Assembly (NCBI GenBank): GCA_028821405.1
Contig: JAPPGK010000012.1
Location: forward strand, 1-54,941
Source of the DNA: Gammaproteobacteria bacterium
GTDB taxonomy: Bacteria; Pseudomonadota; Gammaproteobacteria; Pseudomonadales; Azotimanducaceae
DNA: 54,941 bases
Direction: 5' to 3'
In this document: positions 118 through 14,355 of the stretch, piece by piece
How the letters are laid out: every line of letters begins with the position of its first letter
Numbering within the stretch: the first letter of the stretch is position 1
Position numbers and translations under genes: made by a program
Notes under the pieces: generated by a model
What the model saw: the letters and a program-made list of their open reading frames with translations, nothing else
Database searches by the model: none
Told to the model about the DNA's origin: nothing

Positions 118-1257
118 ATGGAAGTCGACAAGAGTTCCTCCACCACCGGGCAACTGCCCATTGTCCCCGACCACGACGAAACGGTCGCGCGCCTGCGCGA
201 AGAGAACGCACGCCTTAGCGCCGAACTCGCGCGGCTGCGTAGGGTGACGGAGGAGTCGGCGGGTACAACCTGGGAAGCCGAGATGGCGCGCGGAATCGCC
301 TACGCCGATGGTCAGTCGCCCACCAGTTCCCTGTCGGCAGGGAGGTTGCTCAAACAACTTGCCGGTCTGTCGAAGGAGCGCATGAAGGCAGGCCTCATCA
401 GGAACAGCAGCGAACTCGAATACCTCCCGAAACCCTGCACCGACGAGGCCCAACTCGAAGCGGACTTCGTTCGCTGGGGCTACTGCCTCGTCAAGGACGC
501 CATGTCCCCGGAGCAGGTGCGGGCCCAGGTGGACCGCTTGGTGGACCAGGCCGAAGCGGAGCAAAGCCTCAAAGCCGGCATCATGACCAGCCGGAACGAA
601 ACCGCCCAGCTCGTCAACAACCTGGTTCTCAAGGGCGCGGTGTTCCGTGACGCCGTGGAGTTCAAGGAGTCGGCGGCCCAACGCGGCCCGCTGGTGGACC
701 GGCTGCTCACCAAGGTGATGGGCGAGGGCTTCGGCTTGGGCTGCGCCCACGGATCCATCGTGCACCAAGGCGGCGGCCTGCAGGAACTGCACATCGACCA
801 GGGCGGCATGCCGATGCCCTATCCGCCGTTCCCATTCGGTTCCCTGATCATCTGGTGCTATACCCAGTTCGACCTCGACAACGGGGCCACGTACTGCGTG
901 CCCGGCTCGCACCGAAGCGCCACCGGCACGACCCGCTTCCGCGATGGTGTCGACCTGGTGCGGCTGGTTGAAGGCGAACCCGGGCTCGTTGCGATCTGCG
1001 CACAACCCGGCACCTGCATCCTCACCGATACGCGGATCCTGCACTGCGGCGGTCGCAGGATGTCACCGGGCACCCGCTACGCAATGCGCTGCCACTACAA
1101 CCGGTACTTCATGCGCGCATTGCATGAGCAATCGACAGCCAACGTACACGTGCCCGACGACGTCTACGAACTCCTGTCGCCACGGCTCAAGCAGATGATG
1201 GGCATTACCGTGAACAATCACGACCCCATCGGCGAACTACGTCACAACGAAATTTGA
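118..1257 (+). CDS. Phytanoyl-CoA dioxygenase (PhyH) family protein
   Basis: 379 residues. The C-terminal two thirds carry the PhyH-type Fe(II)/2-oxoglutarate dioxygenase pattern: LHIDQGG (His about 225, Asp about 227) and a distal His in ILHCGGRR (about 309), followed by arginines that would hold 2-oxoglutarate (GTRYAMRCHYNRY). The typical CVPGSHR turn lies between them. Residues about 20-42 form a heptad-like coiled coil (ARLREENARLSAELARL), unusual for the family, so the protein may oligomerise or bind a partner. The substrate cannot be read; family members hydroxylate acyl chains, amino acids or small metabolites. It is convergent with ileS, only 14 bases away. The ATG at 118 is the first one in frame with the domain. 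Confidence 0.8.
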   Translation: MEVDKSSSTTGQLPIVPDHDETVARLREENARLSAELARLRRVTEESAGTTWEAEMARGIAYADGQSPTSSLSAGRLLKQLAGLSKERMKAGLIRNSSELEYLPKPCTDEAQLEADFVRWGYCLVKDAMSPEQVRAQVDRLVDQAEAEQSLKAGIMTSRNETAQLVNNLVLKGAVFRDAVEFKESAAQRGPLVDRLLTKVMGEGFGLGCAHGSIVHQGGGLQELHIDQGGMPMPYPPFPFGSLIIWCYTQFDLDNGATYCVPGSHRSATGTTRFRDGVDLVRLVEGEPGLVAICAQPGTCILTDTRILHCGGRRMSPGTRYAMRCHYNRYFMRALHEQSTANVHVPDDVYELLSPRLKQMMGITVNNHDPIGELRHNEI

Positions 1258-1271
1258 CGAACGCGCCGCAC

Positions 1272-4200
1272 TCAAGGCGAGCCCCTCCGCATCGAGAACG
1301 CCAACCGCTTGCCGTCGATGGCCGTCTCGGTTGCGCCATCCGCAACGTCACCGGGCGCCAGAGAAAGGGCCAGGGTCTCGCGCCCGATGTACTCGCCGTG
1401 GGCCTCAATCGCTTCGGCGATGTCCTCGTCGGCGTCGTACACCACGTGAATCCGATCGCTGACCGCGAAGCCACTGTCCTTGCGGGCACGCTGAATGCGG
1501 TTGACGACCTCCCTCGCCACGCCCTCGCGCAGCAGTTCGTCGTCGAGGCGGCAGTCGAGTTCGATGGAGATGAATCGATTCGAGACGGTCTCCGTGCCTT
1601 CCTTGGCCTCCCGGAACACGTGGATGTCGTCGCGGTCGAAACGCTCCCCGTCGATGTCGATGACGCCGTCTTCCTGGAATGCCTCGATGGCATCCGCATC
1701 CAACGCCGCGATCTTCCCTTGGAACGCCTTCATGCGCGGCCCAAGTCGTTTGCCGAGCACGGGAAAATTCGGCTTCGCGTAGAGCGCGATGTAGCTCGCC
1801 TCGTCCTTCTCGTAGTGCACTTCCTTGACGTTCAGTTCGGACTTCACGTAGTTCTCGAGCGTCCTGATCTCGTCGAGCAGCGTCGCGTCGCGATGGATGA
1901 TCGTGATCCGTCGCAGCGGCGTACGCAGGTTGATCTTCACCTGCTCGCGTTTGGAACGGCCGAGTTCGATGACCTGCTGCATGCGCGACACGGCGTCCTC
2001 CAACAGCGGCTTGCGAAGCGAGGGCTCCGCTTCGGGGTAGGTGCAAAGGTGTACGGAGAGCGGCGTCGGCGCCTCGTCGGCGAGGCGCGCGAAGGAAAGA
2101 TAGATGTGTTCCGACAGGAACGGCGCGAATGGCGCCATGGCAACCGACAGTTCGTAGACCGCCATGTGCAGCGTGTTGTAGGCGGCGATCTTGTCGGCTG
2201 TTACGCCCTCGCCCCAGAACCGCGCCCGGTTGAGCCGGATGTACCAGTTGGTGAGGTCGGCGATGAACGAAAACAGTCTCGGCACCACGTTGTAGAGCCG
2301 GTAGCGTTTCATCTCGGCGCCGATGTCCTCCTTGAGCGTCTGCAACCGGGAGATGATCCAAGCGTCGAGAATGTTGTCGCCCCGATGGGTGCCCTTGGCC
2401 GGCGTCCAGCCATCGATCGCCGCGTAGGTCTCGAGAAACGACCAGGCGTTGTACCAGGGCAGGAGCGCACGGCGCACCATGTCGCGCACACCCCGGTCGA
2501 CGAAACGCTGCTCCTCGGCGCGAACCAGCCCCGAGTTGATGAGATACAGGCGTAGCGCGTCGGCCCCATAGGTTTCCATCAGTTCGTCCCCGGGGGTGTA
2601 GTTGCGCAGGCTCTTCGACATCTTCTTGCCGTCGGCCGCCAGCACCATGCCGTTGACGATGACGTTGCGGAACGCCGGTTTCTTGAAGAGCGCTCCGGCC
2701 AAGACCATCAGCGTGTAGAACCAGCCCCGGGTCTGGTCCAGTCCTTCGGCGATGTACTCGGCCGGGAATCCCTGCTCGAAGGTCTGCCGGTTCTCGAACG
2801 GATAGTGGAGCTGCGCATAGGGCATCGAGCCGGATTCGAACCAGCAGTCGAGGACCTCCTCGACACGGCGATAGACGCCGGCTTCGCCATCCACCTCGAA
2901 CGTGAGATGGTCGACGTGCTCGCGGTGCAGATCCCCGACCTCGACGCCCGTCAGCGCCTTGAGTTCCTCGCGCGACCCGATGCAGCGCGCGTCGCCCGTG
3001 GTGTCGTTGACCCAGATCGGCAGCGGCGTTCCCCAGACCCTATTTCGGGAGATTGCCCAATCGATAACGCCTTTGAGCCAGTTGCCGAACCGTCCGTGCT
3101 TGATGTGCTCCGGCACCCAGAGCACCTGGTCGTTCGCCGCGACAACATCGTCGACGAACTCTGTGACACGCACGAACCACGACGGCACGGCGCGGTAGAT
3201 CAGCGGCGTGTCGGTGCGGTAGCAGTGCGGATAGCTGTGCACGATGTCCTGGCGTTCGTAGAGCGTCCCGTTGTCGCGCAGGTGGCGGACGATGTGCCGG
3301 TCGGCGTCCTTGACGAACTGGCCGGCGAAATCGCGGACCTCCTCCGTGAAAACACCCGCCATGGTGACCGGGCAGCGGAACGCCTCGATACCCGCCGCCT
3401 GCAGGATCCGGTAGTCGTCCTCGCCGAACGCGGGCGCCTGATGCACGAGGCCCGTGCCCTCGTCGGTGGTCACGTAGTCGTCGGCGACCACGACGAACGC
3501 GCCGCGTTCCCGCTCAGGTTCGAAGTAGTCGAACAACGGGCGGTATCGCCGCCCCACCAAGTCCGCGCCTTTCAAGCGCGTTTCGACCGTGAGCGACGGA
3601 TGCCGCGCCCGGTAGTCCGCAAGCCGCGCTTCGGCCAGGTAGAAGGTCTTGCCGGTATCGGTGTCGGCGACCCGGACGTAGTCGATGTCCGCACCGACGC
3701 AGACCGCGAGGTTCGACGGCAGCGTCCACGGCGTCGTGGTCCAGGCCGACAGGTAGGCGTCCTCGTCCTCGAGCTCGAACAGCACGGTGATTGCGGGATC
3801 CTGGACGTCGACGTAGTTCTGCCCAGCTTCGAAGTTGGCGAGCACGGTCTCCAGTGCCGTGGACACGGGCATCACCTTCATCCCCTGGTAGATGAGTCCC
3901 CTGTCCCAAAGCTGCTTGACCACCCACCAGACGGACTCCATGTACCAGACGTCCATGGTCTTGTAGTCGTCGTCGAAGTCGACCCAGCGACCCAGCCTCG
4001 TGATGGTCTTGCGCCATTCGGCCACGTAGCGCTCGACGATGGCTCGGCACTCGGCGTTGTAGCCTGCGACACCCATCTTCTGGACCGCCTCCTGGGCCGA
4101 GACTCCCAGCGCCTTGTCGATCTCCTGCTCGATGGGCAGCCCATGGCAGTCCCAGCCGAAACGGCGCAGCACATGCCGGCCTCGCATCGTCCAGTAGCGC

Positions 4201-4412
4201 GGCACGATGTCCTTCAGGATCGAACCCAAGAGATGCCCGTGGTGCGGGAGACCGGTCGCGAAGGGCGGCCCGTCGTAGAAGATGTACGGCTTCTTGTCCT
4301 CCGTGCATGCCAGCGACAACCGGAACACGTCCTGATCCTCCCAGTGCGAGAGGATGTCGTGTTCCATCGCGACGAACGAGAACGCGGCGGTTTCTTCCAC
4401 CTGTTGGGTCAT
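1272..4412 (-). CDS. ileS: Isoleucyl-tRNA synthetase, type 2 (eukaryote-like)
   Basis: 1046 residues, class I aminoacyl-tRNA synthetase that charges tRNA-Ile with isoleucine in the cytoplasm. The HIGH box reads GLPHHGH (residues 54-60) in the context YDGPPFATGLPHHGH, and the KMSKS loop is at about residue 595 (KKMSKSLRNYTPGDE). WDCHGLPIE follows the HIGH box as expected. The GLPHxGH form, the length near 1040 and the lack of the C-terminal zinc-binding cysteines place it in the type 2 clade shared with eukaryotes and some bacteria, rather than the E. coli type 1 clade. Type 2 enzymes are generally poorly inhibited by mupirocin. It starts at ATG 4412, with no neighbour on its strand close enough to form an operon. 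Confidence 0.95.
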   Translation of the reverse strand: MTQQVEETAAFSFVAMEHDILSHWEDQDVFRLSLACTEDKKPYIFYDGPPFATGLPHHGHLLGSILKDIVPRYWTMRGRHVLRRFGWDCHGLPIEQEIDKALGVSAQEAVQKMGVAGYNAECRAIVERYVAEWRKTITRLGRWVDFDDDYKTMDVWYMESVWWVVKQLWDRGLIYQGMKVMPVSTALETVLANFEAGQNYVDVQDPAITVLFELEDEDAYLSAWTTTPWTLPSNLAVCVGADIDYVRVADTDTGKTFYLAEARLADYRARHPSLTVETRLKGADLVGRRYRPLFDYFEPERERGAFVVVADDYVTTDEGTGLVHQAPAFGEDDYRILQAAGIEAFRCPVTMAGVFTEEVRDFAGQFVKDADRHIVRHLRDNGTLYERQDIVHSYPHCYRTDTPLIYRAVPSWFVRVTEFVDDVVAANDQVLWVPEHIKHGRFGNWLKGVIDWAISRNRVWGTPLPIWVNDTTGDARCIGSREELKALTGVEVGDLHREHVDHLTFEVDGEAGVYRRVEEVLDCWFESGSMPYAQLHYPFENRQTFEQGFPAEYIAEGLDQTRGWFYTLMVLAGALFKKPAFRNVIVNGMVLAADGKKMSKSLRNYTPGDELMETYGADALRLYLINSGLVRAEEQRFVDRGVRDMVRRALLPWYNAWSFLETYAAIDGWTPAKGTHRGDNILDAWIISRLQTLKEDIGAEMKRYRLYNVVPRLFSFIADLTNWYIRLNRARFWGEGVTADKIAAYNTLHMAVYELSVAMAPFAPFLSEHIYLSFARLADEAPTPLSVHLCTYPEAEPSLRKPLLEDAVSRMQQVIELGRSKREQVKINLRTPLRRITIIHRDATLLDEIRTLENYVKSELNVKEVHYEKDEASYIALYAKPNFPVLGKRLGPRMKAFQGKIAALDADAIEAFQEDGVIDIDGERFDRDDIHVFREAKEGTETVSNRFISIELDCRLDDELLREGVAREVVNRIQRARKDSGFAVSDRIHVVYDADEDIAEAIEAHGEYIGRETLALSLAPGDVADGATETAIDGKRLAFSMRRGSP

Positions 4413-4456
4413 GAGGCAAGGTGACGCAGCCTGAGGCCGCGCATTCTACTTCGCAA

Positions 4457-5620
4457 TCAGGCGTCGTTGGCGCCGACGCGACCGATCAGTTCGTCGCCCG
4501 AGGCGCTGTCGACGATTGCGTCGCCAACTGCCGCGAAGCCATCGTTGTCCGCGATGTCGGCGAGAACCGTCGCCAGCCGATCCGCAATCGCAGAGCCGAA
4601 ACGTCGTTCGGCCATACGCCGCAACAACGCCCGCTCCTCAACGAGAAACTGCTCCCGCGCTCGCAACCTGCCCTGTTCGAGGCCCTGCTCGATGCCCTGC
4701 TCGATGCCCTGCTCGATGCCCTGCTCGATGCCCTGCTCGATGCCCTGCTCGACGCCCTGCTCGCGACCTTGTTCGAGGCCGCGCGCCATGCCGCGCGCCA
4801 TGCCGCGCGCCATGCCGCGGGCCTCGCCACGTTCGATAGCTTGGCGTTCAAGGTCGTCGTAGTACTTCTGAAGCCGTTCGTTGACGCTCTCCAACAGGGT
4901 CATAGGTTCCTCCATCAACATCGCCGTGTAGCTGCGTCCCGGTTGTCCGGTCCGGCGCGGCCGCAGGCGTTCGATCCAGTCCCGAAACGCACGCCGGATT
5001 TGAGCATCGACGGGATCGTTCAGCAGGCCGGCGAGTTCAGCCACCGCAAGGTCCAGCGCCTTCCCCTGGCTAGTCTCCAGCGCCACCAGGGACGAGACCA
5101 GATTGTCTCTTGGTAGATCGTCCGTCGATCGCTGCCACTCGTCAAGCGCAAGATAGGATTGCCGGGGTTGGAACTCCGCCATGGCGGCACCTGCCGGCAG
5201 CATCATTTCGGTCATCGATAGCGGCGCATTCCACCGGCGTCGCCCGTTGTAGACGACGAGTGGTACGACGTGCGGAAGCACTCGCCCCTCCGAGAGTCCT
5301 TGGCGCTGCCGAAGGAGTTCCTGAAACAGGAGTCCGGTGTATACCAGCATGCGCACCGGCATGGTCGCGTCGACTTCCGACTGGAACTCGAGAAGCAACA
5401 CCACATAGGCACCGGGCGGACGGCCGGCATCCTGTCGGTAGGGGATCTTCCAGGTCCTGTCCCCGTAGCGCGTATGCCATCCGTCGCTGACGTACGCCGT
5501 AGGCAGCAACTCCAACCCGTCGAGATCGAGACCGCCGGTCCACGGCTCGGGCAGGAAGCCTCGCACTAGATCGCGCACTACGCGCGGGAACGCGAACACG
5601 ATCTTGTAGAACTCATCCAT
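4457..5620 (-). CDS. Rpn family recombination-promoting nuclease/putative transposase
   Basis: 387 residues when started at the ATG at 5620 (MDEFYKIVFAFPRVVRDLVRG), which is where this family begins. An in-frame extension to 5788 exists but has no family similarity. The N-terminal half has the PD-(D/E)XK layout of Rpn/YhgA proteins, with VVLLLEFQSEVD as the E-x-Q catalytic strand and VVPLVVYNGRRRW after it. The C-terminal part is a highly repetitive helix made of RGMA and EQGI tetrapeptides, followed by a conserved tail (RMAERRFGS). Rpn nucleases are linked to RecA-independent recombination and horizontal spread and occur in many copies per genome. DNA cleavage is inferred from the family. 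Confidence 0.85.
   Translation of the reverse strand: MDEFYKIVFAFPRVVRDLVRGFLPEPWTGGLDLDGLELLPTAYVSDGWHTRYGDRTWKIPYRQDAGRPPGAYVVLLLEFQSEVDATMPVRMLVYTGLLFQELLRQRQGLSEGRVLPHVVPLVVYNGRRRWNAPLSMTEMMLPAGAAMAEFQPRQSYLALDEWQRSTDDLPRDNLVSSLVALETSQGKALDLAVAELAGLLNDPVDAQIRRAFRDWIERLRPRRTGQPGRSYTAMLMEEPMTLLESVNERLQKYYDDLERQAIERGEARGMARGMARGMARGLEQGREQGVEQGIEQGIEQGIEQGIEQGIEQGLEQGRLRAREQFLVEERALLRRMAERRFGSAIADRLATVLADIADNDGFAAVGDAIVDSASGDELIGRVGANDA
4670..4830. repeat. 12-bp in-frame tandem repeats inside the Rpn gene
   Basis: Two adjacent arrays with a 12-base period. GCCCTGCTCGAT (plus strand) repeats about seven times from about 4680 to 4765 and encodes EQGI/EQGL/EQGR on the minus strand. CGCGCCATGCCG repeats about four times from about 4780 to 4820 and encodes RGMA. 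The period is a multiple of three, so copy-number change keeps the frame and would lengthen or shorten the helical linker. This is typical of Rpn genes. Confidence 0.9.
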
Positions 5621-5730
5621 CGTGTCGAGACTAGACCGCCACGCCAACGACGTATGCAGGACAACGCCGTCAATACGTGTCAGAGATATCTCACGGCGGC
5701 TCCCCGCCGGTAGACGAAGAAGCGGTCGGG

Positions 5731-7089
5731 TCATCCTTGCCGCGACATGTCGTAGTGCCGTTCGGTCGCACCGAAGCCCTCCGGCCACCAGACCTTGCGC
5801 ATAACGAGACCCGCTGGCGACTCATCTTGGCGCGAGCCCAAGCCGAACTGGCAGTGGAACCCCGCGTATCTCGCGTCTTCACAGGCCGCATGCGACCAAC
5901 GCCCCTCGGGCCAGCAAAGCCAAGGCATGTTAGACCGCCTCTCGATCGTCTCGGCGAGGAGGATGAGTTCCTGTCTGAGATTCCCGCGCTTGGTGAGATC
6001 CTCGTGGTGCGGGCCGTGGGTAGCCACGATCCAACCAGATTCCTTGAGGCTGTCAATGTCGGCCGGCTTCAGCAGCCATGCCGGATCGAGCATCTGCGGG
6101 ACGCCGATTTCGTCCAATGCCGCGTGCTGCTTGAATTCGGTCATCGCCTTGAGCCCTGAACGGGTCGCGGTACCGACGGCTAGGGCGTCCTCCGGATCGA
6201 GCCCTCGTTCGGCGCAGTGCTGGTAGAGCCGCTGAAGGGGCAGCGGGCGTACTCCATCGCCGTAGTGATTCTCGCCCGCGAACAGCACGGGACAAAGGCA
6301 CGGCAGCTTCTCGAAGACGGGCACGAGGTCGATCACGTCCTTCCATCCGTCGTCGAAGGTCACCAGCGAAACGGACTCAGCCCCATGCTCAAAGTTCCAG
6401 CACTCCACCGCGTCGTTCAACTGCTCGAGTCGACGCGTCAAGTCCGCGTACTCCACGGACATGCCGTAGCGAAGGTGAACCCGGTGAGCCGGCCCGGGTG
6501 CGCCCCGGTGGACACGATGTAGCGCGGGAACTTCGAGAGGGTAGAAACTGCGGTTCGAGCGGCCCTTGTAGGCGCCCTCGGGCCGGAGCCCCGTCGCCCA
6601 CGAGACCACTTCGTCGACCGTATCGCATCCCGCCACGACCTGGTCTCCGCGTCGTTGATCGAGTCGGCGATCAGCCAATTCCTTTGCCCAGCCCGCTGCC
6701 GACCGAAGCACCGCGATCGGCTTGCCCTCCTGCCACGCAAGCGCGAGTTCGCTCAAGGTTCCGGCACCGCCGCCTAGGCCAACGACAAGATCCGCCGACT
6801 GGACGACGATGTGGTTGCGTACAGCACCGAGTTCCGTGCGAACAACGCCAGCGGGATGCGGATTCCGCTCCCAGGCGCGCGCCCAACCGGGCTCGATATG
6901 GATAAGGGTCGTTGCGGTTGCAGCTTCCCGGTGTCCCTTCGCGACCGCGCGCATGACGCCTCCCATGCCCCCCGTAACCAGGTCGAAGCCAGCATCCGCA
7001 AGCGCACGGGCGAGCGACTCGGTCAAGCGCCGCAGTTCATCCGAAATGTCGCCAGCGGATCCGACGACAGCGACGACGTTTCTTTTCAT
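5731..7089 (-). CDS. Fusion of a SLOG/LOG (TIGR00725-like) domain and a NodB-type polysaccharide deacetylase
   Basis: 452 residues. Residues 1-175 form a Rossmann-like SLOG domain: VVAVVGSAG at the start, LVTGGMGGVM (38-47), and the nucleotide-binding signature GLGGGAGTLSE (104-114), a variant of the LOG PGGxGTxxE motif. Residues about 205-452 resemble carbohydrate esterase 4: SLVTFDDGW (241-249) holds the catalytic/metal Asp pair, ATHGPHHEDL (356-365) is the metal His motif, and WPEGRW (393-398) is the third motif. Its ATG overlaps the stop of the giant gene upstream by four bases (ATGA, 7086-7089), so the two are translationally coupled. The likely role is processing of a nucleotide or sugar ligand together with N-deacetylation of a glycan. 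No signal peptide, so a cytoplasmic substrate is implied. Confidence 0.75.
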   Translation of the reverse strand: MKRNVVAVVGSAGDISDELRRLTESLARALADAGFDLVTGGMGGVMRAVAKGHREAATATTLIHIEPGWARAWERNPHPAGVVRTELGAVRNHIVVQSADLVVGLGGGAGTLSELALAWQEGKPIAVLRSAAGWAKELADRRLDQRRGDQVVAGCDTVDEVVSWATGLRPEGAYKGRSNRSFYPLEVPALHRVHRGAPGPAHRVHLRYGMSVEYADLTRRLEQLNDAVECWNFEHGAESVSLVTFDDGWKDVIDLVPVFEKLPCLCPVLFAGENHYGDGVRPLPLQRLYQHCAERGLDPEDALAVGTATRSGLKAMTEFKQHAALDEIGVPQMLDPAWLLKPADIDSLKESGWIVATHGPHHEDLTKRGNLRQELILLAETIERRSNMPWLCWPEGRWSHAACEDARYAGFHCQFGLGSRQDESPAGLVMRKVWWPEGFGATERHYDMSRQG

Positions 7090-10000
7090 CTCCCACCCCG
7101 GATCCGCGACGGCTTGGCGACGATGCGCGCGATGATCGCTTCCCTCTCCGCGCGGTCCGCGCCTTTTCCAGTACCGGAAGGTTCGTGCAGATAGAGCGGC
7201 TCCTCGATGTATACCGGGTGATCCGCCATCTCCACGATGGGCAGCATGTAGGCCCAGTCGTTCGCCAAGTCGACATATTCGCCGTCGAGCCGCAGATCCT
7301 CGTCCGGTATGGCATCGAACAGCCGCTTGCGAAACGAACGCAGGTGCTGCCAGACGTTGCCGCCCCGGTGTCGGCGCGGATTGTCGAAACAGACCGGGTA
7401 GGTCGCCGCCTTGTCCGTTCGCAGCATGGAGCCCACCGTCACGTCGGCGCCCCTCCGGTACTCGGTTGCGAGCCGCTGCAACACGCCCTTGCCTATCAAC
7501 GCATCGTCCGCGTCGAGTGTGACGACGACGGTCTCGGGATCCGCGCAGACGTGTCGAATGGCCGTTACCAAATTCGCGAGCAAGCCCTGGCGACGCCGGT
7601 TCCGAACGATCGTGCAGCGGTCTTCGAGCGGTTTCCATGCGATCTCGAAGTACTCGGCGAATTGCGAGTCCGAGGCATCGTCGAACACCACCGCGCCCCA
7701 ATCCTCGCCTCGCTGGCGGCGCATCGACTCGATGCATCGACACAACCTCCCGGCCGGCACGTTGCGACCGGACACCACGAATACGAATGGTTCTCGGCGT
7801 CGTGGTTCCAGCCACGCCGGCAGGTCGCCGACCCACTCCGGCTCGCCAACCTGACCAGCCGGAACCACGCCGCGTTCGACACGGTCGAGGACCCCAAACC
7901 ACGGGGTCGGATCATCCTTCCTCGAATTGGGCGGATGCACGTAGAACGTCCGCCGGTCGCCGCCGCGATAGGAACGCCCGGCGCCCCCCTGAATCGCGCG
8001 GTCCACCGCTCGGTGCCATGGCAACACCAACCGGCCACTGCGTTCGTCCACGCGGTTCGGGAAAGGCCGCGCGTCCACCAGTTGCTGAAGGTCGATCAGC
8101 GACGCCCGGACCTCGACCCGCCAGGGACCGTCGGCTCCCTCCGGCGTGTAGGGCTGGTCCTCCGCCATCGCGATGTTGAACGCAACGGTGAGCGCGTCCG
8201 GGTCGCTCCGGACCGCGGCGAACATATCCGCAAGATAGTCGTGGTCGCGGTCTCGGCGGCCGATCATCGCATCGGCGTCGACCTGGAGCACGTAGCGCGT
8301 CGAACACGCCTCGAATCCGGCCAACGTTGATGCGAGTTGCGCACCGGTCTCCGCATGGGCCCGGGGGGACGAAACTCCAAACCACCTTCGGTTCACGGAG
8401 GCGGCGACTTCGCCGTCGCCAGAGCCGACGAGGATCCGGTCGATCCATCCGGCGTCCTGCAACGCGTTCGCCGCTTCGCGCAGCCGTCCGAGGCCCCCGC
8501 CATCGCCGTGCTCCCGAAGGAACCCGTCTTCTCGCGAGTCGAGGACCAGTAAACGCTCCGAAAACGCCCGCGGCGATTCGAGCTGCGAAACCAAGTGGGG
8601 AACTTGCACATCGAGCGTCGAAGCCTCCATCGCGCACGCCTTGATGAGCAGCGTGACCTCCGGCAGCGCGGGCATCGGCGCGAGATCGAACAGCAGCTCG
8701 TCCGATGCCGGCTCGAACCGAGCCAGATCGACCGTCCCCAACTCCACTCGGTTTCGAACGGTTAGGTTTGCCCTCGCGAACTCTCGGCGCAGCATGCGTT
8801 CCGGTCGATACACGTCTTCCCGGGTCCGTCCCGAGTCGCGCATCGTCTTGCGGTAGGTGAACGTGCGCTCGTACCGCGCACCGTCGGGAAGCTCGCGGCC
8901 GGCCTCCGGGGTGGAGCCGCCAAACGCAAAGTGCGGATTGCAGACCACCAGCACGACCCGGCCGTCTTCCGCAACCGAGGCCCGGAGATCGCGAAGGATG
9001 CCGCGAAGCACATCGTCGCCTTCGATCGTGCAAAGCACCCGTTGGCAAACGACGAGATCGTAGGGGCCGTCCCCCACGGCGTCCGCCGGGTCGTGCGTGA
9101 ACCGCAGATTCGCGGCGCCGCGCGCCTGCCAGCGCAGCGCTCGCGCCTCGTCCGGGTCGTAGCCGACGACCCCGGCATTCCGTTCGGCCAAGGCCTGTGC
9201 GAGTTTGCCGTCGCCGCAACCGTAGTCCAGCACCCACAGAGAGTCGCCGGCCATGCCCAGGATGGCGTTGTGCGCCGCGGTGTCCTTGTACTGCTCGGTA
9301 ACCCGGAGAACCGCTTCGTGGAACCGCTCGAAGCCGTCGAGTTCCGGGATGTCGGAGTCGGTCAGCGCCTTGCGCATGACCTTGTCGAGGTGAGGATTCG
9401 CGGCCCATCGGAAGGACATCCACGCACGCTGGCACATGATCTTGAATTCGTCTTCATCGTCCCGCGACAGCGCCCGAATGTCGGAGCCGTAGTCGATCAA
9501 GCGCACCCGCCCGTCGATGACGCGCAGGTTGTCTGGATCGATATTTCGACAGACGATGCCACTTCGCCAGCATTCCTCCAGCAGCCCGATCAAGCCCGGC
9601 CCGAAGCCACCGGAATAAGGTTCCGTGTGCTCGTACGGATAGACGAGAACCGCCCGATGCCCGGCGCGCCGGAAGTCGAGGATCGGGTAGAGGTGGCGGG
9701 TGCCGCGCCAAGCACCGACGAACGAATGCAGCAACTCGGGCGCCTCCAGCATAGAGGACGACTTCCACCAATAGTCGAACACCTTGTATACGTGCTGCCC
9801 GTCGCTGAGCGCGACGCCTTCCTTGCCGCTTCCAAGCAACGTCAGCGCCCCGCCCGGGCACGCCAGCCGCCGGGCCGCCGCTTTCGCGTTGGCGACCCGT
9901 TCGTCCTCGAGGCCAGCCGCCAGCGCCAACCGGTTGCTCTCCGACAACCGGGATTGGTGGCATTCGATGTGCGCCGGCAGATCGTGCAGGAAATCCGCGA

Positions 10001-12320
10001 CGCCTTTGTCGTTCAAGGATCGGGACTCGCGTTGGATTCGTTCGAGCGTCTCCGTCCGGTAGCAAGCCCCGAGCCGTTCGGCAAACGCCCGGAGCCTATC
10101 GACCGAGTCACGGTACAGCGGCTCGCTCCACCAGGAGTCACCGTGGACGAGATCGGCGAGTATTCGAGCCAGTCCCCGAATGCGATGAAACGACAACGAA
10201 AATGCCGCCAGTCGCTCGTCGAGGTATTTCGCGGCGCGCGCGGAGAAGAGTCCGACCGCGTCCTCCGCCACGCGGATGTTCGAACCATCCGCCACGAAGA
10301 CATCGCCGGTATCCTCCAGCGCCGAATACATCGCGTACCCTCGAACGTCGTCCACGATGCGTTCGACGTCCAGCGACCCGGCGCGGACCTTGGAACGATC
10401 CTGATACGCGGTGATCGGAAGCGTCCGAACCCGACGATCAAAACACCGCTTCTGCAGTAGCGCCCACAGCATGTCCGAGCGTCGGCTCGGCCGACCGTCG
10501 ACTATCGGCGCGGCGTTCGGGGCAAATCTCAACGCTTCGACATCGAGAACAAACGTGTTGCCGCCGCGCTGCACGCCGTTGCCTAGATGCTCGAACGGGT
10601 CGATGTCGGCCTGCACGGCCAGCGGACGGAAGACCTGTTCGCCCGCCAGGATTCGTTCGGCCTGCGCAGCCACTCGTGAGAACGCCTGACCGACGGTTTC
10701 GCCGGGAGCATCCGGCACGATCCAAATAGGCACTTCAAGGCGGTCAGTCTCTCGACGCGACAGGTCGTAGTAGTAGTCGCGCCGCCCGTTTCTCAAGCTC
10801 GCGTTCTCGGCGCTTCGATCCGGCAGAGCGTCGTCCGGATCCAGTATTGCCAGCCACTGCAACGAAGCGACCAGATCCACGAGTTGAACCCGCACGGTGG
10901 CCGCGACGGGGAGAGGCGGCGCACCCGTACAGGTCCCAAGCGCGATGTCCAGAAAACCGCCAGCCCGAAGTCGGCGCAGGTTCCCCACATTCCGCACGAT
11001 GTTGCCCCGGCGGCGCAGCAGCCGTCCATCGCCTTCCTCTACCAAGGAGTCCAGGCGCATGTCGTCATCCAGAATCCACACCACCGACCCGGGCCGATCC
11101 TTGGCGAACGCGTAGAGGTAGCTTTGCAGGACGGTCCGGGCGTCGGCGATGGAGAGCATCGTGCCGGTCGTCGCGCCGCCATCGAGAATCCGCCCGTGCT
11201 GAGCGTCGTCGGCATGGTGCTTCCGGTCCACGAGATGGACACGCAAACCGCGGTAGCGTTCCCCTTCGACCAGGTGGCGCAGATCCGCGTCAGGCGTTGG
11301 CTGGCAACCGTTCTCCAAAACCAGGACGTCGAGCCCGGACAACTCCGCATCGTCGTCTAGCCCGCGCAGGTCGCCGAGGAGTTCGTGGAGATTCGCCAGT
11401 TGCGCCGTGTCCGCGATGATCCCCACGACGATATGCACCGGAGCCTGGGCGGGCGACTCTCCGAGCGGAGAGGCCCCGGGCTCCCGTTGTGCCGTCGGCG
11501 GGGGCAGCGGCGCACGTTGCCAACCGAAGAGCCGTTGGGCCCGATGCTCGAAAGCCGCCCGCTGATCTTCTGACATGCGCCCGCAGTACTTTCGGTAGAA
11601 CCGGTCGAGCCCCCGGTTCTTTGACGCCGACCCCGGCGTCGACAGCCGTTGCCGCGACCGGCACGCAAAGTGTCGAATGCTCGGCCGGGGCACCGCGCCG
11701 TACCTCACGCCCGGCAAGTCTGCGATCCGGATGCAGAGATCCCGATCCGTGCAACTCGGCAGCCATTCGTCGAACAGGCCCGCTTCGAGCAGCCGGCTCA
11801 GCCGGCAGACCAGGTTGCTGCCTTGGATGCCCGGATTCCCGACCAGGAAATCCGCAGCATCTAACGACACGGGCGGCGTGATTGGTTCCGGTTCGGCGTC
11901 CTCTTCGAGCCGCCATAGTGGTGCCGCGACCAGATCCAGATCACCGCGGGTGACCGTTGCGAGACATGCCTCCAAGTGGTACGGCAGCCACTCGTCGTCG
12001 TCGTCGAGAATCGCTACGTAGACGTGCTCCGGGCTTTCGCTCGAAGTCCGCAGCAGATGATCTAGGCCCGAATTCCATGCTCCGGCGGCACCGTTGGTAC
12101 GCCGGTTGCGCAGGAAATCGACGTTGACGCCCGGAAGATGCCAGCCCTGGACTAGCCGCCGTGTTCGATCGGCAACGTCGCCGACCGAGTCGTCGACGAC
12201 AACCAGCCGCGTTGGCGGTCGACTCTGCCTCTTGACCGAGACGAAAGTCCGCTCTTGCAGAAGGTCAACTCGATTGGCGGTCGCGACGAGAACCGCCACG
12301 ACCGGTTGAGATGCGTTCAT
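7086..12320 (-). CDS. 1744-residue protein: four glycosyltransferase-like domains, kinase-like domain and SAM methyltransferase
   Basis: One uninterrupted frame with GGAGGA five bases before ATG. Domains in order: GT2-like fold at 1-250 (VVVDDS at 41-46, LDDDDEW at 105-111); second GT-like fold at about 295-690 (VWILDDDM at 414-421); kinase-like fold at about 820-1000 (glycine loop LGSGKEG, Lys846 in VYKVF, catalytic-loop equivalent CRNIDPDNLRV at 924-934, IDYG at 942-945); class I methyltransferase at about 1028-1180 (VLDYGCGDGKL, then YDLVVCQRVL); third GT-like fold at about 1222-1480 (LQVDADAMIG at 1345-1354); C-terminal GT2 at about 1511-1715 (VVFDDAS, TLDADDALIG). No signal peptide or membrane helices. 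It reads like a cytoplasmic assembly line that builds, methylates and perhaps phosphorylates a glycan or glycoconjugate. Acceptor and donors are unknown. Confidence 0.8.
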   Translation of the reverse strand: MNASQPVVAVLVATANRVDLLQERTFVSVKRQSRPPTRLVVVDDSVGDVADRTRRLVQGWHLPGVNVDFLRNRRTNGAAGAWNSGLDHLLRTSSESPEHVYVAILDDDDEWLPYHLEACLATVTRGDLDLVAAPLWRLEEDAEPEPITPPVSLDAADFLVGNPGIQGSNLVCRLSRLLEAGLFDEWLPSCTDRDLCIRIADLPGVRYGAVPRPSIRHFACRSRQRLSTPGSASKNRGLDRFYRKYCGRMSEDQRAAFEHRAQRLFGWQRAPLPPPTAQREPGASPLGESPAQAPVHIVVGIIADTAQLANLHELLGDLRGLDDDAELSGLDVLVLENGCQPTPDADLRHLVEGERYRGLRVHLVDRKHHADDAQHGRILDGGATTGTMLSIADARTVLQSYLYAFAKDRPGSVVWILDDDMRLDSLVEEGDGRLLRRRGNIVRNVGNLRRLRAGGFLDIALGTCTGAPPLPVAATVRVQLVDLVASLQWLAILDPDDALPDRSAENASLRNGRRDYYYDLSRRETDRLEVPIWIVPDAPGETVGQAFSRVAAQAERILAGEQVFRPLAVQADIDPFEHLGNGVQRGGNTFVLDVEALRFAPNAAPIVDGRPSRRSDMLWALLQKRCFDRRVRTLPITAYQDRSKVRAGSLDVERIVDDVRGYAMYSALEDTGDVFVADGSNIRVAEDAVGLFSARAAKYLDERLAAFSLSFHRIRGLARILADLVHGDSWWSEPLYRDSVDRLRAFAERLGACYRTETLERIQRESRSLNDKGVADFLHDLPAHIECHQSRLSESNRLALAAGLEDERVANAKAAARRLACPGGALTLLGSGKEGVALSDGQHVYKVFDYWWKSSSMLEAPELLHSFVGAWRGTRHLYPILDFRRAGHRAVLVYPYEHTEPYSGGFGPGLIGLLEECWRSGIVCRNIDPDNLRVIDGRVRLIDYGSDIRALSRDDEDEFKIMCQRAWMSFRWAANPHLDKVMRKALTDSDIPELDGFERFHEAVLRVTEQYKDTAAHNAILGMAGDSLWVLDYGCGDGKLAQALAERNAGVVGYDPDEARALRWQARGAANLRFTHDPADAVGDGPYDLVVCQRVLCTIEGDDVLRGILRDLRASVAEDGRVVLVVCNPHFAFGGSTPEAGRELPDGARYERTFTYRKTMRDSGRTREDVYRPERMLRREFARANLTVRNRVELGTVDLARFEPASDELLFDLAPMPALPEVTLLIKACAMEASTLDVQVPHLVSQLESPRAFSERLLVLDSREDGFLREHGDGGGLGRLREAANALQDAGWIDRILVGSGDGEVAASVNRRWFGVSSPRAHAETGAQLASTLAGFEACSTRYVLQVDADAMIGRRDRDHDYLADMFAAVRSDPDALTVAFNIAMAEDQPYTPEGADGPWRVEVRASLIDLQQLVDARPFPNRVDERSGRLVLPWHRAVDRAIQGGAGRSYRGGDRRTFYVHPPNSRKDDPTPWFGVLDRVERGVVPAGQVGEPEWVGDLPAWLEPRRREPFVFVVSGRNVPAGRLCRCIESMRRQRGEDWGAVVFDDASDSQFAEYFEIAWKPLEDRCTIVRNRRRQGLLANLVTAIRHVCADPETVVVTLDADDALIGKGVLQRLATEYRRGADVTVGSMLRTDKAATYPVCFDNPRRHRGGNVWQHLRSFRKRLFDAIPDEDLRLDGEYVDLANDWAYMLPIVEMADHPVYIEEPLYLHEPSGTGKGADRAEREAIIARIVAKPSRIRGGR

Positions 12321-12382
12321 GCTTCCTCCAACGATGATTGGGTTCGAAAACCACAGTCAGCCGACTTTCAGAAGCAGCTAAA

Positions 12383-12446
12383 GCCTCGACTGGCGTCGAG
12401 GCCCTCGGGGATCACTAGTCATCGCGATCGTTCGATCCGATCCCCG
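12383..12446 (-). promoter_or_regulatory. Hairpin-rich leader of the giant gene
   Basis: Two inverted repeats lie in the leader. GCCTCGAC (12383-12390) and GTCGAGGC (12395-12402) form a perfect 8-bp stem with a 4-base loop. CGGGGATC (12406-12413) and GATCCCCG (12439-12446) form a second perfect 8-bp stem around a 25-base loop. In the minus-strand transcript the first stem comes last and is followed by TTTAG, a weak U-run, so it could act as an attenuator or as a block near the ribosome site. No known riboswitch class was recognised. Confidence 0.35.
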
Positions 12447-12495
12447 GGGGCCGATGCTTTAACCGTCCGGCGGACAGCTAAGCTGAGCGTCGAGC

Positions 12496-12524
12496 ACCAT
12501 ACTGGGAGCTTGCGCAACCGTCAA
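12496..12524 (-). promoter_or_regulatory. Sigma-70-like promoter for the giant glycosyltransferase gene
   Basis: On the minus strand TTGACG (12524-12519) is followed after 17 bases by TATGGT (12501-12496). Transcription would start near 12488, giving a leader of about 165 bases before the ATG at 12320. The -35 box matches well and the -10 box is moderate. Confidence 0.5.
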
Positions 12525-12572
12525 CGCAGACTGACAGGCACGCCAGTCTTGAGCCCAAAAAAACGTGGGCCG

Positions 12573-13365: not shown

Positions 13366-14355
13366 TCAAGCTGCAGCGGCATTCGCCTCGTAGAGGTGAC
13401 AGGCCACCAACCGATCCGGCTGCCCAACGTCGGTGACCGGGATCAGTTCCGGCGTCGTCTCGCGGCAGACGTCCATCACCTTGGGGCAGCGATTCGCGAA
13501 TCGACACCCGGGCGGCACGTTGACCGGCGACGGGATCTCGCCCTTGATCGCGGTGGACTCGCGGGTTCGCTCGCTGGCCGGGTCTGGCTCCGGGTTGGAA
13601 CCGATGAGTAGCTCGGTGTACGGATGCTTCGGCGCGAAGAACACCCGGTTGGCGGGGCCGATCTCCACGAGCGAGCCCAAGTACATCACCGCCATGCGGT
13701 CGGAGACGTAGCGCACCATGGACAGGTCGTGGGCGATGAAGAGCAGCGTCAATCCCAGCGAATCCTTGAGTTCGTCCAACAGGTTCACGACCTGGGCCTG
13801 GACCGAAACGTCCAACGCCGAGATCGGCTCGTCGCACACCACGAACTCGGGTTCGAGTACCAGCGCCCGGGCGATGCCGATGCGCTGCCGCTGGCCGCCC
13901 GAGAATTCGTGCGGGTAGCGCGACATGTGATCCGGGTTCAGCCCCACCCGCCTTAGCCAATCGCCTACCGTGTCCCGGGCCTCTTGGGAGTTCAAATCCG
14001 TGTGCAGCTTCAGACCCTCGCCGACGATCTCGCCGACGGTCATGCGCGGGTTCAGCGACGAATAAGGGTCTTGGAAGATCATCTGCATGGCCCGGGCGTA
14101 GCGCTGGAAATCCCCCGGCCGGTACCTGGCGGGCATCGACTCGCCCTTGTAGACGACATCACCGCCGGTCTTGTCGTGCAGACCGACGACGGTCTTGCCC
14201 AAGGTCGACTTGCCGGAACCGCTCTCGCCCACCAAGCCAACGATCTCCTGCGGGGCGATATCGAACGAGACGTCGTCCACGGCATGCACCACCTGTCCCC
14301 GCGCAATGGGGAAGTGCTTGGTCAAGTTGCGGATCTGGACGAGCGGTTCGGTCAC
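13366..14355 (-). CDS. Oligopeptide/dipeptide ABC transporter ATP-binding protein (OppF/DppF-like)
   Basis: 329 residues from GTG 14355. Walker A GESGSGKST (about 43-51), Q-loop MIFQDPYSSLNPR, signature SGGQRQRIGIARAL, Walker B FVVCDEPISALD and the switch His in IAHDLSMV are all intact. The C-terminal oligopeptide-type extension has the cysteine pattern CRFANRCPKVMDVC...C of Opp/Dpp ATPases, known in the family to bind an iron-sulfur cluster. It should pair with the OppD-like ATPase at 20628-21662 and the permeases at 23556-25880. Unusually it stands over 6 kb from oppD, with unrelated genes between. Confidence 0.9.
   Translation of the reverse strand: MTEPLVQIRNLTKHFPIARGQVVHAVDDVSFDIAPQEIVGLVGESGSGKSTLGKTVVGLHDKTGGDVVYKGESMPARYRPGDFQRYARAMQMIFQDPYSSLNPRMTVGEIVGEGLKLHTDLNSQEARDTVGDWLRRVGLNPDHMSRYPHEFSGGQRQRIGIARALVLEPEFVVCDEPISALDVSVQAQVVNLLDELKDSLGLTLLFIAHDLSMVRYVSDRMAVMYLGSLVEIGPANRVFFAPKHPYTELLIGSNPEPDPASERTRESTAIKGEIPSPVNVPPGCRFANRCPKVMDVCRETTPELIPVTDVGQPDRLVACHLYEANAAAA

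Follow-up and report, generated by a model that had tools for sequence, protein, structure and literature searches.

The window analyzed here is the whole of a 54,941-nt stretch, positions 1-54,941 of contig JAPPGK010000012.1 from a Gammaproteobacteria bacterium (GenBank assembly GCA_028821405.1), and it carries two adjoining genes: one for a 1744-residue protein, referred to below as the giant, and one for a 452-residue partner whose start codon overlaps the stop codon of the giant as ATGA (Table 1). An initial annotation had described an uninterrupted frame for the giant without giving its strand; we place the frame on the minus strand, where it has no internal stops and GGAGG lies 4 nt upstream of its ATG, and a plus-strand reading of the same interval meets stops. 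The giant is made up of six domains in the order glycosyltransferase (GT), GT, kinase-like, methyltransferase (MT), GT, GT, with gaps of 2-24 residues between them as judged by domain profiles. The frame, the four GT domains, the kinase-like fold, the Rossmann methyltransferase and the fusion of sequential activities in one chain had all been proposed in that annotation and were all borne out by the analyses below; what it had missed were the partner gene and the absence of the usual catalytic aspartate from the kinase-like domain.

Table 1. Features of the two-gene locus, in window coordinates
Feature	Position	Strand	Basis
Coding sequence of the giant protein, 1744 residues, six domains	7086..12320	-	ATG-to-stop frame
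Domain 1 (residues 1-275), GT2, GT-A type, DDDDEW	11496..12320	-	Pfam Glycos_transf_2
Domain 2 (residues 285-800), predicted GT-A type with C-terminal helical part, LDDDM	9921..11468	-	AlphaFold/Foldseek
Domain 3 (residues 818-1012), protein-kinase-like	9285..9869	-	Profile against protein kinases, residue conservation
Domain 4 (residues 1013-1215), class I S-adenosylmethionine (SAM) methyltransferase	8676..9284	-	Pfam Methyltransf_23
Domain 5 (residues 1216-1505), predicted GT-A type, VDADAM	7806..8675	-	AlphaFold/Foldseek
Domain 6 (residues 1508-1740), GT2, GT-A type, LDADDA	7101..7799	-	Pfam Glycos_transf_2
Partner gene, 452 residues, SLOG/LOG-like domain fused to CE4 (NodB-type) deacetylase	5731..7089	-	Pfam
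SLOG/LOG-like domain of partner	6592..7086	-	Pfam LDcluster4, module profile
CE4 deacetylase domain of partner	5734..6567	-	Pfam, CE4 profile seeded with the partner itself
Acquired cassette (approximate), giant and partner, ~6.8 kb	5700..12534		Near-empty sites in sister species

Searched with the whole giant, Pfam returned Glycos_transf_2 with an E-value of 8.5e-28, and both terminal domains matched this family when searched alone: domain 1 over residues 10-133 (E 5e-14, 53.0 bits, cut-off 23.3) and domain 6 (E 2.6e-14, 53.9 bits, same cut-off). NCBIfam TuaG, PglI and WcaA also matched domain 1, far under their cut-offs. The acidic motifs of these domains are conserved, D106-D109 and W111 being kept in 46 of 46 domain-1 relatives and D1603, D1605 and D1606 in all 24 domain-6 relatives. 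Domains 2 and 5 had no Pfam match, and structure prediction at these two doubtful sites gave GT-A folds. For domain 2 (region 285-800 aligned with relatives, 20 rows) the AlphaFold model had a mean pLDDT of 88.5, and its top Foldseek matches in the PDB were hyaluronan synthase, PcManGT, GlfT2, AvpGT and mannosyl-3-phosphoglycerate synthase, with E-values of 1e-5 to 1e-4 (best 1.1e-5). The model of domain 5 (region 1211-1512, 18 rows) had a mean pLDDT of 92.1 and matched COLGALT1, a Leptospira GT and GalNAc-Ts (E 1e-7 to 1e-5, best 9.8e-8). Domains 2 and 5 thus share the fold and acidic site of known GT-A enzymes, but profiles of the two domains found no credible sequence match among solved chains, the best for domain 2 being a designed protein at E 0.099. 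Since the TM-scores by query length were modest (0.18-0.36 for domain 2 and 0.34-0.51 for domain 5, among the 50 rows shown for each), the GT-A assignment rests on the E-values, on top probabilities of 1.00 and on the acidic pairs D418/D420 and D1348/D1350, which are invariant in 37 of 37 and 25 of 25 relatives, respectively; on these models domains 2 and 5 are of GT-A type and are predicted glycosyltransferases. A recent duplication of domain 2 as the origin of domain 5 was considered and rejected, the profile comparison being null (probability 0.2%).

A profile of domain 3 matched protein kinases with a best E-value of 2.4e-6. Six residues are invariant in 35 of 35 kinase-like relatives (Gly832, Glu834, Lys846, Asn931, Asp943 and Gly945), among them the counterparts of the ATP-binding lysine (Lys846), the catalytic-loop asparagine (Asn931) and the DFG aspartate (Asp943). 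The HRD position that normally holds the catalytic aspartate, residue 926, is Asn in the giant and in 33 of the 35 relatives, and the aspartate is retained in two, L026 and L029 (loci are designated by L and a number). Domain 4 matched Pfam Methyltransf_23 at residues 1029-1188 (E 4.2e-14) and, with D1032, G1034 and D1055 kept in all 17 methyltransferase relatives, is by its motifs a canonical methyltransferase. Residue 1171 of the giant, which adjoins the invariant Arg1172, is Tyr, in contrast to His in 16 of 17 methyltransferase rows.

Relatives were collected by a scan of genome contigs (43 loci), a scan of viral contigs (one locus) and plasmid records, which gave two more of use (L050 and L051). 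These loci are what the scans returned, a non-random sample with many members from metagenome bins, and they include close kin (L030/L031/L033, L008/L032/L077 and L026/L029); the module profiles were built from them, so matches are not independent of their seeds. Domain 2, which we took as the marker defining the family, was present at 37 loci, a count that leaves out fragments and repeat copies (L002-L005, L049 and L079-L082) and loci without domain 2 (L037, L038, L039 and others). Sixteen of the 37, the window included, share the six-domain order within a single frame; 14 of the other 15 are complete, L010 ends at a contig end within domain 6, and the listed frame of L011 begins inside domain 1. 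By record title, they come from Pseudomonadota, Planctomycetota, Poribacteria, Neomarinimicrobiota, Bacillota and methanogen-type archaea. Because the same six domains recur in one frame at 15 other loci, other phyla included, we ruled out that the giant is a frame-error artefact or a chance ORF. Further loci came from genome searches, which detected domain 2 in 3 of 369, 8 of 343 and 2 of 344 genomes. The idea of a phage or plasmid gene was rejected as well, since one of 50,697 phage records and three of 72,556 plasmid records matched, none over 80% of the query. One viral-contig record (L049) did contain a full-length copy, with 95.2% identity to L035.

Neither outcome that the initial annotation had named as refuting its view was seen: GT-A folds were predicted at the two doubtful sites, and full-length homologues exist in a single frame. 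Elsewhere the modules are split or rearranged. Domains 1-2 occur with GTP cyclohydrolase II (GCH2) and NADAR at 10 loci, accompanied by AsnB-like genes at all 10 and NAT-like genes at nine; three of these (L050, L072 and L078) have the order domain 1, kinase, domain 2. Three loci have SLOG-kinase fusions (L030, L031 and L033), and three have domain 2 with NAT, SLOG and CE4 (L069, L070 and L076), with M20 and PhyH also in L070 and L076. Domain 2 is missing from nine further loci that combine domains 5-6 with a kinase-like domain, and seven of these form a sister architecture with a radical SAM gene (L022, L026, L027, L028, L029, L034 and L051); the radical SAM domain is fused C-terminally in L026 and L029, the pair that retain the kinase aspartate. 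In L075 (positions 1095-6956) a full-length giant has an extra C-terminal domain, with SLOG adjoining and a convergent nSTAND1-FGE protein. This C-terminal domain resembles, by profile, the ORF found between giant and SLOG in L008; the label 'histidine phosphatase' for that ORF in L008, L032 and L077 and for the L075 C-terminus was given by eye, and Pfam was null for two of them.

The partner gene pairs an N-terminal SLOG/LOG-like domain with a CE4 deacetylase domain. It matched Pfam LDcluster4 (E 2.7e-27, 95.7 bits, cut-off 26.3) and, under the cut-off of 106.9, TIGR00725 (E 1.1e-23, 83.4 bits). The match to Polysacc_deac_1 was marginal for the 452-residue protein (E 5.9e-5, 23.5 bits, cut-off 23.1) and fell to 21.7 bits for a longer version of the ORF; relatives L012, L070 and L071 gave 52.1, 61.9 and 86.5 bits, and TFDDG and HxxxH motifs can be read by eye in the window's domain. 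The deacetylase profile matched at seven of the 37 loci (L001, which is the window, L012, L016, L069, L070, L071 and L076); three of the seven seeded the profile, and the assignment is backed by Pfam in the window, L012, L070 and L071. The ATGA overlap was present in five of five other loci examined, which had been chosen for a 4-nt overlap in the ORF table. SLOG accompanies the giant at 12 of the 16 full-length loci, either in the same chain (L035) or encoded downstream on the same strand within 920 bp, with an extra ORF between the two in L008, L012, L032 and L077. The four without SLOG are L010, which ends at the contig end, and L006, L009 and L014, with none within 1.3-1.6 kb. LDcluster4 is widespread but thinly scattered, at least one being present in 112 of 150 control genomes from the window's phylum, mostly one per genome. 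The family is that of the LOG/SLOG nucleotide hydrolases, here tied to GT modules; at some loci SLOG shares a chain with the kinase-like domain (L030, L031 and L033) or with the whole giant (L035).

Sister species indicate that giant and partner were acquired as a unit, since the sequences flanking them are nearly joined there. Matching DNA lies on both sides of the cassette in three sister species. Only 267 bp separate the counterparts of window positions 5699 and 12535 in G301, and 140 bp those of 5698 and 12568 in G309, the filler differing between the two, so that the right end is at 12534 against G301 and 12567 against G309; in G302 the flank match ends farther out (5421 and 13248) and defines the site more loosely. 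Domain 2 went undetected in 15 congeners and in the others among 57 relatives, and among 299 genomes drawn from the phylum the giant was matched in two, the window's own and one with a reshuffled form. Between the isoleucyl-tRNA synthetase gene and the cassette lies a gene on the minus strand (4457-5788) matching Pfam Transposase_31 (YhgA-like, E 1e-20), which we assign to the backbone since this DNA is common to G301 and G309.

We next weighed known multi-module enzymes, among which the closest characterized fusion we found is ORF6 of Klebsiella pneumoniae O7, followed by WbdD of E. coli O9a. According to PMC11231755, O7 ORF6 is a single long polypeptide that joins a SAM methyltransferase, a kinase, a carbohydrate-binding module (CBM), a coiled coil and two GT2 modules in the order MT-kinase-CBM-coiled coil-GT-GT, its catalytic aspartate D441 is needed, and it serves O-antigen assembly that depends on an ABC exporter. 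PMC3482155 describes WbdD as likewise combining kinase and methyltransferase, with the methyltransferase first, a coiled-coil domain and no GT domains. One could read the giant as an enzyme of surface-polysaccharide synthesis, in which, as in these proteins, polymerase and terminator are combined in one chain; its GT modules would build a repeat, and its kinase and methyltransferase would install a methyl-phosphate cap at the end: GT, kinase and methyltransferase make up the O7 ORF6 tool set, our kinase-MT profile reaches WbdD (E 1.4e-5), and UDP-glucose-dehydrogenase-like or epimerase genes stand beside several relatives. However, we rejected membership of the WbdD/O7 ORF6 terminators, from which the giant departs in domain order, coiled coil, exporter and catalytic aspartate. 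The likeness to WbdD is confined to the methyltransferase part, and the giant reverses the order of methyltransferase and kinase. Gaps of 2-24 residues leave no room for a coiled-coil ruler, as judged from the domain profiles and the longest helix of the domain-2 model (41 residues) rather than from a coiled-coil predictor, and the counterpart of D441 is Asn. The two-gene cassette holds no export gene and has the SLOG-CE4 partner instead; an oligopeptide-ABC-type gene at 13366-14355 sits outside it, in the flank common to the sister species. The genes of L030 lie within an hsd operon that is likewise free of export genes. A simple hydropathy scan found no transmembrane stretch in the giant (best 19-residue value 1.39) and this, with the missing exporter, disfavors a surface polymer, which we regard as unlikely. 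The initial annotation had proposed a role in building a modified glycan; the lack of exporter and transmembrane stretch and the nucleotide-processing partners point to a nucleotide-linked glycoconjugate rather than to a glycan polymer. Its statement that no described family is arranged in this way is in line with Pfam, NCBIfam and PADLOC, none of which has a model spanning the full-length giant, but O7 ORF6 provides a precedent for fusing GT, kinase and methyltransferase. PADLOC matches to the giant were local (mad2, 2.1e-10, to the methyltransferase part; PD-T4-6, 1.7e-4, to 47 residues of the kinase part), and the partner matched PsyrA at 0.0073. Searches of the open-access literature found no description of the family, and its absence from print rests on these searches alone.

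The neighbors of the family point to nucleotides. Among the 37 loci, SLOG was found at 18, GCH2 with NADAR at 10, both at none and neither at nine. LOG, GTP cyclohydrolase II and NADAR all belong to nucleotide-acting chemistry, the latter two being known from riboflavin metabolism, and we accordingly read SLOG and GCH2-NADAR as alternative supplies of one building block. The alternation partly follows the domain-2 tree, in which a single clade of 13 contains all ten GCH2-NADAR rows and the hsd-embedded trio with SLOG stands apart, so it reflects far fewer than 28 independent events. Such partners, together with GTs, methyltransferase, deacetylase, AsnB-like and NAT-like proteins, PhyH oxygenase and radical SAM enzymes, are also the usual tailoring set of a secreted natural product, e.g., a glycosylated nucleoside antibiotic with no connection to phage defense. 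In L041 (1929-11188) domain 2 alone stands beside a 2640-residue protein like nonribosomal peptide synthetases (its first 1000 residues having PP-binding, aminotransferase III and condensation domains), and AvpGT, which was crystallized with the nucleoside Ara-A, is among the domain-2 fold matches. AvpGT is one of many GT-A matches equally strong, however, the two-gene cassette contains no transporter, regulator or resistance gene, and the placement between hsdS and hsdR described below would be unusual for an antibiotic cluster; we consider a secreted product decidedly unlikely.

Restriction or DNA-modification operons enclose or adjoin several relatives. In L030 the genes are flanked by hsdM-hsdS and hsdR, all on one strand (Pfam), and comprise a 115-residue ORF, SLOG-kinase, M20, AsnB-like, NAT-like and GT-GT; profiles showed the same placement in L031 and in L033, which is cut at both ends. 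The 115-residue protein (L030, 9017-9364), encoded between hsdS and the gene for SLOG-kinase, looks by eye like an AlbA/Schlafen-type fragment and had no PADLOC match at 1e-8. Near L023 and L025 there is a type I restriction gene on the opposite strand. In L071 DruF- and DruE-like genes (986 and 2001 residues) follow directly downstream on the same strand; the cluster upstream of them in L071 and L079 contains GT-GT, GCH2-NADAR, AsnB, NAT and CE4. In L016 (with L082, Candidatus Uabimicrobium amorphum) the GT cluster adjoins Dpd genes, identified by PADLOC as a DpdA-DpdB fusion, a DpdC/DpdA-like gene and DpdE, F, G, H, J and K, whereas neither DpdD nor DpdI was detected; a gene for the GTP cyclohydrolase folE2 (Pfam GCHY-1, E 7.6e-100) adjoins the cluster too, and a C-terminal fragment of the DpdJ-like protein had no PADLOC match on its own. 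The Dpd system carries out 7-deazaguanine DNA modification and restriction by GTP-derived chemistry, and GT, kinase-like and methyltransferase domains are not known to be among its parts; DpdA-like proteins were found beside L016, and the window cassette has no DpdA-type transglycosylase. In the passages available to us, a study of jumbo phages (PMC7824862) reports DUF4326 fusions with Macro, SLOG and NADAR domains and restriction-modification parts, with no mention of a giant protein of this kind.

These placements might reflect mobile genes piling up in genomic islands, with the giant serving ordinary carbohydrate metabolism, an explanation that is compatible with the polysaccharide and natural-product alternatives. 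The cassette is, from the near-empty sites, plainly a mobile two-gene unit, and most full-length loci examined had no clear defense neighbor among the part of their flanking ORFs that was scanned. Against such chance proximity, the genes at three loci sit between hsdS and hsdR on a single strand and overlap or are closely spaced, those of L071 lead straight into DruF-DruE, and the modification or restriction systems concerned are of three different kinds. For scale, HSDR_N had 122 matches in the 150 control genomes (sum of the match column), which at about 3.7 Mb per genome puts an HsdR within 10 kb of roughly 0.4% of loci by chance; we observed one at four of 37 loci by a profile that was seeded with L023, L030 and L031 (those three and L033), plus L025 by PADLOC, in three lineages of the tree. 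Since the controls are from the window's phylum, and L023 and L025 are Bacteroidota, this rate is a rough yardstick. We consider island pile-up somewhat unlikely. For PADLOC, 29 flanking proteins of relatives were picked by hand, in addition to three other proteins, and the matches in L012 (restriction-enzyme-like), L011 (GajA, over 56 residues) and L073 (reverse transcriptase) are of uncertain meaning. In L078 (15761-17146) a weak match to Pfam ApeA_NTD1 (E 5.6e-5, under cut-off) marks a possible defense gene ~3 kb past the GT cluster.

Taken with the domains, their motifs, order and conservation, these neighbors lead us to propose, tentatively and at somewhat less than even confidence, that giant and partner form an intracellular assembly line for a small, soluble, decorated glycoconjugate built on a nucleotide-derived starter, possibly for defense. 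We infer a nucleotide-linked product since the conserved partners are nucleotide-processing enzymes, and a possible role in host defense since several relatives lie with restriction or DNA-modification genes; the substrates and the order of steps are likewise conjectural. The SLOG/LOG-like domain would cleave the base-ribose bond of a nucleoside 5'-monophosphate, supplying base or ribose phosphate, a starter step that GTP cyclohydrolase II and NADAR would replace in relatives. The four GT-A domains would then add sugars successively from nucleotide-sugars, the CE4 domain would strip an N-acyl group off one sugar, and the methyltransferase would cap a sugar or phosphate; the kinase-like domain might phosphorylate by means of an altered active site or act as a nucleotide-binding regulator. 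In relatives the core bears other tailoring modules, such as AsnB amidotransferase, NAT acyltransferase, M20 hydrolase, radical SAM and UDP-sugar dehydrogenase. In a more specific version, which we find quite unlikely, this would be a new class of defense-linked hypermodification machine that places a glycosylated nucleotide-derived group on nucleic acid, or makes a soluble signal or poison, in cooperation with HsdR, DruE or Dpd, the window being its compact stand-alone form.

A number of observations weigh against the proposed assembly line. GT-A and SLOG folds serve other chemistry too: IspD-type nucleotidyltransferases, which have the same fold, made up three of the 50 domain-5 Foldseek rows shown, and not every SLOG protein is a LOG-like hydrolase. 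The kinase-like domain may, from its residues, be altered or dead. Nine domain-2 loci have neither partner, four of them cut by a contig end (L010, L018, L023 and L024) and five uncut (L006, L009, L014, L015 and L041), and the division between SLOG and GCH2-NADAR appears to be largely a matter of descent. UDP-glucose-dehydrogenase-like genes at eight of the 37 loci and epimerase genes at four suggest a supply of carbohydrate and would fit a sugar polymer equally well (labels Pfam-checked in L008 and L012; L016 was under cut-off). In the window itself, no defense gene was found among the ten neighboring ORFs given to Pfam, nor HSDR_N anywhere in its genome; the scarcity of clear defense genes beside the full-length loci has been noted above, and PADLOC was null for six of 10 and six of nine flanking proteins in two sets.

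The giant appears to be a new variant among multi-module glycan enzymes, for which Pfam, NCBIfam and PADLOC hold no full-length family. A six-domain sugar-assembly chain that is kept across bacteria and archaea, has alternative nucleotide-processing partners and is repeatedly placed at restriction loci offers a lead to nucleotide-sugar chemistry. Its kinase-like domain, conserved for Asn at the position of the catalytic aspartate, poses a question for enzymology, and the window's two-gene version is compact enough for expression as a whole.

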